Shown here piece by piece: positions 24,335-26,293 of a stretch of 64,000 bases of DNA. Numbering within the stretch: the stretch's first letter is position 1; each line of letters starts with the position of its first letter. The notes below the pieces were generated by a model, which was given only the letters and a program-made list of their open reading frames with translations, did not search any database and had not been told where the DNA came from. The position numbers and the translations under genes were made by a program. Source of the DNA: Planctomyces sp. SH-PL14 (lineage in GTDB: Bacteria; Planctomycetota; Planctomycetia; Planctomycetales; Planctomycetaceae); the NCBI RefSeq assembly GCF_001610835.1, contig NZ_CP011270.1, positions 1,550,001-1,614,000 of the forward strand, in the 5' to 3' direction.

Positions 24335-24427
24335 GCAGGCACGGCTCGTTCCAGTGTCCGCTATGGCTTGGACGGCTCGGCGGGGGCGAGGCCTTCAAGG
24401 GGCGGATGATCCATTGCGCGAGTGAGG

Positions 24428-24972
24428 CGGGGTCCAGGGGCTCGCCCTGGTGGGGGATGCAAGGGGGCGACGCCCCCTGCCCGCCGGAGGCCTGGCTCGT
24501 CGGGAGATGTCTGAAGGAATGAGTGTCCAGGCGCGGACGACGTGCCGTATGTCCCCCCCACCCACACGCTGGGATTGCAAAGCCAGCGGTGTGATGTGAG
24601 GGAGTCCTCAACGCTGGTACCACAAAGGGGACATCCGTTGTGTCCACGGTTCATCATCGAAAGTGCCTCCGGCGGCAAGGGGGCGTGGCCCCCTTGACCT
24701 ACCCCTTTAAAGGTGCCTGGCAGATACAATGCGTTAGATCAACAAGCTTCGTAATTTCCAGGCCAGTTTCCCCAGGACTTAACGCGGATGTCGACTGCCT
24801 GTCTCTTCGAGACCAAGAACCTCTCGAATTGTCAACTGCGGAGTCAATGGAGGCAAAACGTCGTAACCACCCCTGCGGTCGCCAGTTAAGATCACCTTTA
24901 AAGGGGTACCCCCTTGACCCCAGCGGCCGTCGCACATTGGGTTTGAGCTATCGAGTCGTTCCGGCAAGAACG
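24428..24972 (+). repeat. Dispersed hairpin repeat, copy 7 (forward), interrupted by a MITE-like insertion
   Basis: The copy spans 545 bp because a 209-bp element plus an 11-bp duplication is inserted in hairpin G; without these it is 325 bp. Hairpin A is CCAGGG-GCTCG-CCCTGG and hairpin B GGGGGC-GAC-GCCCCC. It lies in a convergent junction. The 112 bp from 24973 to the GspF-like stop contain only a short direct repeat (CTGAAAAC, CTGAAAAC) near 25060-25080. Confidence 0.95.
24700..24908. mobile_element. MITE-like insertion with 16-bp terminal inverted repeats
   Basis: TACCCCTTTAAAGGTG (24700-24715) and CACCTTTAAAGGGGTA (24893-24908) are perfect inverted repeats bounding 209 bp with no coding capacity. 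The element is flanked by an 11-bp direct repeat CCCCCTTGACC (24689-24699 and 24909-24919), which occurs once in uninterrupted repeat copies; this is direct evidence of insertion with target duplication. The inside is less GC-rich than the surroundings. An 11-bp duplication recalls IS4/IS231-type transposases, but no parent element is in the window. Confidence 0.85.
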
Positions 24973-25084
24973 TGGTTCAAGACCACGGAATCAGCCGCCC
25001 TTCTCGACGGACCACGATTCTGCGATTGCCCCCGCCCCCTGACCGTAGCCCGCTCGCCACTGAAAACCGACGACTGAAAACTTC

Positions 25085-26293
25085 CTACACAATCGACGAG
25101 CTCTGCAGAATCGGCAGCATCAGACCCACGACCACAAACAGCACGATCGCCGCCATCACCAGCAGCATCAGCGGCTCCAGCATCCTGACCACGATCGCCA
25201 GCTCGCGATTCGTCCGGATCTCCAGGTTGTCCGCGATGTTGATCAGCACCTCTTCCAGATTGTTCGCCTCTTCCCCGACCGAGATCATCTCCACGACCTC
25301 CTCGGGAAACTCCTTGCTTTGTCCTAGGGGCCGCGCGAGCGACTTCCCGGTCGAAACGTTTTGCGCCGCGTCCTCGATCGCCTTGCTGAGAACGAGGTTC
25401 GCCGTGGCGTCCTTCGAGATCTGCAGCGACGGCAGGATCGGCACGCCGTTCCGCAGGAGCGTCCCCAGCACGCGGCAGAACCGGGCGATCGCCAGGCTCC
25501 GGACGATGCGGTTCACCCCGTAGGCCTGGAGCCGGAACCGGTCAAACTGCCACCGCCCCTTCTCGGTCACCAGGTACCGCTGGATCCCCACGACGGCTCC
25601 CGCGATCGCCCCGACGGCGACCCACCAGTACTTCTGGGCGAAGTCGCTCATGGCGATCAGGGTTGAGGTCGCCCAGGGGAGCCCACCCCGTTCCCGCATC
25701 CGCTCGAAGATCGGCTCGAACTGCGGGACGAAGTACACCATCAGGACCATCACGACGACCGAGCCGAAGATCAGGAGGAACGAGGGATAGATCATCGCCC
25801 CGATCACCTCGGACTTGATCTTCTCCTGGTGCTCCGTGAACAGCGCGACGCGTTTGAGGACGTCTTCGAGGAATCCCCCTTCTTCCCCGGCGCGGACCAT
25901 GCTGATGACGAGCTCGCGGAACACCTTGGGGTGGTGCCGCATCGCCTCGTACATTCGCGTCCCGTCCGCGACTTCGCCGCGGACCTCCTGGAGGACGTAC
26001 TTCATGGCGGGCAGGCGGGCCTGCCGTTCGAGCAGCTCCAGCGAGCGCAGCAGCGGTACCCCGGACTTCAGCAGGTCCGCGAGCTGGGAGTAGAAGAGGG
26101 CCAGATGTTTCGGGCTGACGCCGCGGGTCGCCGACTTGCGGTTGACCTCGCCGGACTCGGCCAGCGTGACTTTGATCGGGAAGAGTTGCTTTGTGCTGAG
26201 CGCAACGAGGGCTTCCTGCTGACTCCCGGCGGGGATCAGTCCGGTTACCTGTTTGCCGGTGAGGTCACGTGCTGTGTATTCGTAGTCCGCCAC
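25085..26293 (-). CDS. Type II secretion / type IV pilus inner-membrane platform protein (GspF/PilC family)
   Basis: A 402-residue protein with two GspF domains (about 65-190 and 270-395), each with the amphipathic-hydrophobic pattern FYSQLADLLKSGVPLLRSLE and FCRVLGTLLRNGVPILPSLQ, and three transmembrane helices at about 168-190, 220-240 and 378-398. The N-terminus YEYTARDLTGKQVTGLIPA is family-typical. It forms the membrane platform of pilus or pseudopilus assembly. It stands alone, without GspE or pilin genes; the DUF1559 prepilin-like protein in this window is a possible client. It is transcribed divergently from hemH. Confidence 0.93.
   Translation of the reverse strand: MADYEYTARDLTGKQVTGLIPAGSQQEALVALSTKQLFPIKVTLAESGEVNRKSATRGVSPKHLALFYSQLADLLKSGVPLLRSLELLERQARLPAMKYVLQEVRGEVADGTRMYEAMRHHPKVFRELVISMVRAGEEGGFLEDVLKRVALFTEHQEKIKSEVIGAMIYPSFLLIFGSVVVMVLMVYFVPQFEPIFERMRERGGLPWATSTLIAMSDFAQKYWWVAVGAIAGAVVGIQRYLVTEKGRWQFDRFRLQAYGVNRIVRSLAIARFCRVLGTLLRNGVPILPSLQISKDATANLVLSKAIEDAAQNVSTGKSLARPLGQSKEFPEEVVEMISVGEEANNLEEVLINIADNLEIRTNRELAIVVRMLEPLMLLVMAAIVLFVVVGLMLPILQSSSIV

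Follow-up and report, generated by a model that had tools for sequence, protein, structure and literature searches.

A 209-bp MITE-like element and a likely parental IS4-related insertion sequence share a dispersed hairpin target in Planctomyces sp. SH-PL14

What is the short segment that interrupts a copy of an abundant repeat in the genome of Planctomyces sp. SH-PL14, how did it get there and which enzyme could have moved it? The window that was analysed is a stretch of 64,000 nucleotides (positions 1,550,001 to 1,614,000 of contig NZ_CP011270.1), and the positions of the element and of the surrounding repeat refer to it. Loci elsewhere carry labels such as L034 where copies have to be told apart.

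Structure, copies and distribution of the element

An earlier note on this DNA, made from the letters alone, had proposed a MITE-like element of 209 bp with an 11-bp target duplication at 24689-24919. The element and its duplication were recovered; the range includes both duplications, and the element proper, to which no strand is assigned, lies at 24700-24908. Its terminal inverted repeats (TIRs), TACCCCTTTAAAGGTG, agree in 16 of 16 bases. The left TIR (24700-24715, plus strand) equals the end of a resident insertion sequence, IS-A, at the start of the IS-A transposase gene, and at the identical right TIR (24893-24908, minus strand) the match to IS-A covers 17 bp. The TIR was previously described as nearly palindromic, and its core, CCTTTAAAGG, forms a perfect palindrome. 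Copies of CCCCCTTGACC on the plus strand at 24689-24699 and 24909-24919 form the target-site duplication, which is exactly 11 bp long and cannot be extended.

Within the window, TACCCCTTTAAAGGTG was found twice at up to two mismatches, both times as an end of the element, and it had no match in 100 shuffles. Exact 16-base inverted pairs with a spacing of 100-2000 bp occur ten times in the window, and one of them, the pair of the element, is flanked by an 11-bp direct repeat. First-order Markov simulations yielded any such inverted pair in 4 of 100 cases and a pair together with a direct repeat in 0 of 100. The G+C content of the element is 0.50, as compared with 0.65 for the window. Because all internal reading frames are short, a coding function was rejected; the longest frame wholly within the 209 bp has 33 aa (minimum 20 aa), which means that no transposase is encoded. 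An RNA gene was rejected as well, since no Rfam family reached gathering strength in 24400-25100; the single match up to E 1 scored 16.3 bits, with a gathering threshold of 58.6, and was located outside the element. The element folds more strongly than shuffled sequences (z -3.8 and -2.7), for which the pairing of the TIRs accounts in good part. Every sequence test of the MITE class made here gave the result expected for a MITE, and 24700-24908 is best read as a non-autonomous MITE-like element placed by transposition.

A search of the whole genome (a single contig of 8,442,773 bases) revealed two copies of the MITE with 100% identity over 209 bp. The second copy (G000:C1:1898863-1899071, minus strand) lies 324 kb from the window copy in another copy of the repeat, in the opposite orientation relative to the target motif. 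Both MITEs are flanked by an 11-bp duplication. The repeat flanks of the two MITEs are 91% identical over 102 bp and 88% identical over 74 bp, as compared with 100% for the MITEs themselves. In the window, the upstream part of the interrupted repeat, including the hairpin CAAGGGGGCGTGGCCCCCTTG, occupies 24428-24699 (plus strand; 82% identity over 291 bp to the repeat at the second MITE), with an approximate 5' limit at 24428 that is also based on the repeat copies in the window. The downstream part covers 24909-24981 (plus strand; 88% over 74 bp to the repeat at the second MITE), and its 3' limit is approximate. The dispersed repeat with its conserved hairpin has 14 sites in the window, from 549 to 63060, and about 800 copies genome-wide. 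CCCCCTTGACC itself occurs 14 times in the window. Two of these occurrences are the duplications of the MITE, and the other 12 are unoccupied and have repeat sequence on both sides, so that they represent empty sites, as the earlier note had assumed for the other repeat copies.

The distribution of the MITE was examined in a family set of 170 genomes, comprising this genome and 169 others; none of those listed belongs to the same genus. No relative was present among the matches listed for the other 169 genomes (up to four candidates scored in each). Phages gave no match to the MITE, viral contigs none to the exact 24-base pattern of its end, and plasmids none to window positions 24600-25000. 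Among 392 genomes of the phylum (up to two candidates scored in each), one partial match of 31 bp was obtained outside this genome. Thus, the earlier proposal of a new element holds within the family, phage, viral-contig and plasmid searches, with this one partial match at the phylum level. It concerns 24773-24803 (bases 74-104 of the MITE); 28 of these 31 bases are shared with part of a 719-aa reading frame of a distant phylum member (L088). The match is marginal (E 7.9e-5 for that genome, about 0.03 over 392 genomes). By eye, the frame looks ATPase-like. The matching bases are possibly a scrap of a captured gene; as evidence for the origin of the interior, the match was rejected as too weak.

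IS-A and IS-C, two related insertion sequences

The earlier note had found no parent transposase in the window and had suggested searching the genome for a full-length insertion sequence (IS) with the same ends. Such an element exists in IS-A. None of the 17 genome-wide matches to its transposase falls inside the window, and the likely parent is thus present in the genome and located outside the window. The exact 16-base end occurs ten times in the genome, four times in the two MITEs, five times in full copies of IS-A and once in a split copy; among the 170 family genomes, it is present in this one only. IS-A has five full copies of 1452 or 1476 bp and one copy split by a third IS. The copies at L034 and L035 differ by three bases, and a 24-base gap is common to those at L033 and L036. 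All five full copies have open transposase frames of 480-488 codons. One end of IS-A equals the TIR of the MITE in 16 of 16 bases (A-type), and the other, TACCCCTTTCAAGGTC, differs at 2 of 16 (B-type). An internal IS-A fragment of 475 bp lies near 317,645-318,136, and a strong DUF1501 protein adjoins one IS-A copy. Outside this genome, a contig search uncovered one locus with a relative of IS-A in a Pirellulales MAG (54% over 35 residues).

The MITE and IS-A have 16 bp in common at one end and 17 bp at the other. Beyond the ends, comparison of the MITE with IS-A or with the related element IS-C gave only short words with E values of at least 0.1, and an origin of the MITE by internal deletion of IS-A or IS-C was rejected because there is no similarity past the ends. 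As its interior is unrelated to IS-A, the MITE is not simply a deletion derivative and was probably mobilised in trans.

The transposase of IS-A matches the DDE_Tnp_1 domain (PF01609, E 1.2e-15). Its catalytic residues D161, D231 and E339 are separated by 69 and 107 residues and lie within the pattern D(60-110)D(100-150)E of the IS4 family. The Y(2)R(3)E(6)K signature is incomplete: Y332, R335 and E339 are present and the position of the lysine is taken by T346, as it is by threonine in all four aligned transposases. With the NCBIfam IS4 model NF033592 (cut-off 115), IS-A scores 115.6 bits and IS-C, at 113.8 bits, falls just below. The target duplications have about one helix turn, as in the IS4 family, namely 11 bp at the IS-A copies L034 and L039 and at the IS-C copies L041 and L042. 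Seven IS4 subgroups have been distinguished, and the duplications of the tabulated subgroups range from 7 to 13 bp (De Palmenaer et al. 2008, PMC2266710). The subgroup IS231 is described there with 5'-CAT ends and duplications of 10-12 bp; the duplication length does fit, and the ends read TAC in IS-A and the MITE and CAG in IS-C. IS-A resembles the IS4 family in its single-ORF DDE transposase and in both spacings, and the subgroups IS231, IS4Sa and IS4 in its length class of 1.45-1.48 kb and its duplication of about one helix turn, with IS-C also sharing ends that start with CA. Unlike in IS4 elements, the lysine of YREK is replaced by threonine and the ends of IS-A and the MITE start with TA (PMC2266710). 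IS-A is called IS4-related here and is filed in no subgroup because spacing, ORF and duplication fit but YREK is incomplete. The earlier guess of an IS4/IS231-type family with duplications of 10-12 bp was therefore right in kind.

The sister element IS-C (1477 bp, six copies, ends CAGCCCTTTGAAGGTG) encodes a transposase that is 46-47% identical to that of IS-A. Its copies at L033 and L043 have an altered right end. The copies at L033 and L034 have one non-repeat site in common, with GCCGGAGTGC on the left of one and on the right of the other. Two IS-C copies have left flanks (L040:59-757 and L043:552-1250) that are identical over at least 699 bp and end in a repeat fragment, and a composite segment has probably been duplicated.

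The dispersed hairpin as a common target

The 11-mer CCCCCTTGACC occurs at 832 sites in the 8.44-Mb genome, as compared with 18 for the reversed control. A second repeat pattern, CCCCCTTGACCCC, is present 786 times in this genome; of the 169 other family genomes, 30 have any copy and none has more than five. Within the family, the repeat is nearly confined to this genome. The 11-mer corresponds to the 3' arm of the hairpin plus ACC (CAAGGGG-loop-CCCCTTG, then ACC). On folding, two 41-base window examples form hairpins, which are equalled by 3 and 2 of 200 shuffles.

In total, 28 element ends were examined, derived from 13 full elements (MITE, IS-A and IS-C) and the two ends of the split IS-A. 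CCCCCTTGACC or its complement abuts 17 of the 28 ends exactly and 21 within one mismatch, and is missing at seven; in these counts, the two ends of one insertion do not represent independent cases. The seven exceptions come from IS-A L034 and IS-C L043, each with both ends, and from the IS-C copies at L033, L034 and L040, each with one. IS-A L034 has an 11-bp duplication of its own (GCACAGAGACC) and no end at the repeat motif; by eye, its flank looks like part of an esterase gene. The MITE, IS-A and IS-C thus have one target in common, the hairpin arm of a repeat with about 800 copies, which is not an accidental site.

Direct 11-bp duplications flank both MITEs, two of five full IS-A copies (L034, L039) and two of six IS-C copies (L041, L042). 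They are lacking at the full IS-A copies L033, L035 and L036, at the split IS-A and at four of six IS-C copies. At IS-A L033 (2489-3940) and the split copy (L037/L038), the motif on either side is arranged as in the upstream half of the repeat, with the left side of L033 consisting of the 11-mer only, preceded by IS-C. At IS-A L035 (1391-2866) and L036 (1489-2940), both flanks are downstream halves. Two loci of each kind are as expected from inversions between oppositely oriented IS copies within this repeat, and we read the missing duplications at IS-A and IS-C copies as probable products of later recombination. The variants of the duplication do not pair simply: GCCCCTTGACC is found on one side of L035 and of L036, and CCCCCTTGACT on both sides of the split IS-A. 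Copies of the third IS at G000:C1:4288379 and 4419671 adjoin the halves of the split IS-A, which are now about 131 kb apart, consistent with a chromosomal inversion.

Related elements on hairpins were also found beyond IS-A and IS-C. A genome of another genus of the same family (G089) has at least three copies of a 1536-bp IS (best 9 of 29 candidates scored), whose transposase is 43% identical to that of IS-A and whose ends are CAGCCCTTTGAAGGTG. All three copies found are flanked by the direct repeat GCTCACAGAGC or its complement; the duplication measures 11 bp with CAG as the start of the IS and 13 bp with the terminal C/G assigned to the target. GGCTCACAGAGCC occurs 79 times in the G089 genome (six times beside the three IS copies), twice as the reversed control and once in SH-PL14. 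Among the unoccupied G089 sites listed, six of eight distinct ones read CACGGCTCACAGAGCCGTG, a perfect hairpin, and for one sequence of this type 0 of 200 shuffles folded as well. The third IS, at L059:1374-2894, is IS4-like and encodes a 481-aa transposase that is 26% identical to that of IS-A. It is inserted into the middle of the hairpin of the SH-PL14 repeat, another copy being located inside IS-A, and its duplication has 10 bp (GGGGCAACCC) or 12 bp (GGGGGCAACCCC), according to which IS end is chosen. In the genome G076, more distant sister IS loci (L075 and L077) lie within a large palindrome (GGCCCAGGTTGC...GCAACCTGGGCC).

Judged from these sequences, the group seems to retain both the stagger, at about one helix turn, and its preference for abundant hairpins, with the letters of the target changing. 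Other sister loci gave this preference no support: no direct duplication was found at the sister loci L063, L065 and L066, which have clear TIRs, and at L075 (1430-3016), where the ends are clear, the flanks are inverted rather than direct. TIR and TSD scans gave no usable ends at L068, L071 and L077. In two genera, hairpins unrelated to each other show the same stagger, and the MITE uses the same route. It is conceivable, if rather doubtful, that this IS4-related lineage, a YRE-T variant, inserts into any hairpin repeat that its host has in abundance, because the transposase recognises a structural feature, such as an extruded hairpin, and not one particular sequence.

Mobilisation of the MITE and its meaning

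In our view, the MITE is a non-autonomous cut-and-paste transposon that was most probably moved in trans by the transposase of IS-A into the hairpin arm. The IS4-like DDE transposase would bind both 16-bp ends of the MITE in trans and pair them, and would then excise the element. Insertion would take place at the 3' arm of the repeat hairpin, where the target would be cut with an 11-bp stagger, and gap repair would leave CCCCCTTGACC on both sides. The repeat may be recognised by its sequence or as a hairpin. Several findings stand against this explanation: the MITE and IS-A have only 16-17 end bases in common, duplications are missing at three of five full IS-A copies, the split IS-A and four of six IS-C copies, and neither IS-A L034 nor IS-C L043 is joined to the repeat motif at either end.

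Instead of a transposition, repeat DNA might have been rearranged or duplicated locally, since recombination is expected in the very abundant repeat around the MITE and exchanged flanks do occur at four IS-A loci. Such an origin is nevertheless extremely improbable in view of the exact boundaries, the perfect TIRs, the exact 11-bp duplication and the 12 unoccupied target sites in the window. The earlier note had named the lack of any second TIR pair, together with a missing empty site in close relatives, as the sign of a rearrangement, and the identical second MITE 324 kb away refutes such an origin by that standard. This MITE faces the other way relative to its target, so that duplicating an entire repeat would not suffice without an additional in-place inversion of the MITE, and two insertions are simpler. 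The association with the repeat could also reflect the survival of insertions in harmless intergenic DNA instead of target choice by the transposase. Repeat copies may lie mostly between genes, where insertions would do little damage, and two of the 13 full elements (IS-A L034 and IS-C L043) have no end at the motif. Survival would hardly explain why most ends are joined at the same base pair (17 of 28 exactly) of a repeat that is at least about 270 bp long, or why all three copies found of the G089 sister IS sit at one 11-mer of a different hairpin repeat, and we consider this explanation very unlikely.

More weight has to be given to the idea that the MITE was made and moved by another autonomous element, since lost, which had A-type ends at both termini, and that IS-A only shares these ends. 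The interior of the MITE is unlike IS-A or IS-C past the ends. Moreover, the MITE has two A-type ends and IS-A has one A and one B, so that a full-length parent carrying the A end twice may have existed in the past. The end has no further exact copy in SH-PL14 or the other 169 family genomes, and IS-A shares its ends and its 11-bp target with the MITE within this genome, which makes a lost parent unlikely and favours mobilisation by IS-A.

In bacteria, the ends of MITEs match those of a resident autonomous IS. Like the bacterial IS MITEs treated in one review, the element described here is short, lacks a transposase and has perfect TIRs and a target duplication; unlike them, it has only two copies, an interior unrelated to the parent and one position within a dispersed hairpin (PMC10969869). 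In the main text of that review, IS4 does not occur as a whole word. It is already known that IS elements aim at dispersed palindromes. For instance, all nine copies of ISRm22 from Sinorhizobium meliloti, which is called an IS4 family member, lie in REPs, and imperfect repeats at three copies have been explained by IS copies recombining with each other (Tobes and Pareja 2006, PMC1525189); the main text of that paper does not contain the term MITE. The duplications of ISRm22 have 6 bp and lie at the palindrome axis, as opposed to 11 bp corresponding to the hairpin arm plus ACC here. New here are a MITE, IS-A and the sister IS-C with a common hairpin-arm target. A limited search of open papers retrieved no report of this MITE or of a planctomycete pair of an IS4-like element and a MITE sharing a hairpin target.

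By itself, the MITE is ordinary. Together with its likely parent, it gives a clean natural set of one target, two autonomous elements, one non-autonomous passenger and hundreds of sites, which suits the question of how a DDE transposase chooses a hairpin repeat. Since a sister IS uses a different hairpin, recognition of sequence versus structure is directly testable. Hairpin targeting provides an IS with hundreds of potentially harmless landing sites. Inverted copies can then recombine, and the exchanged flanks at four IS-A loci are as expected after chromosomal inversions.
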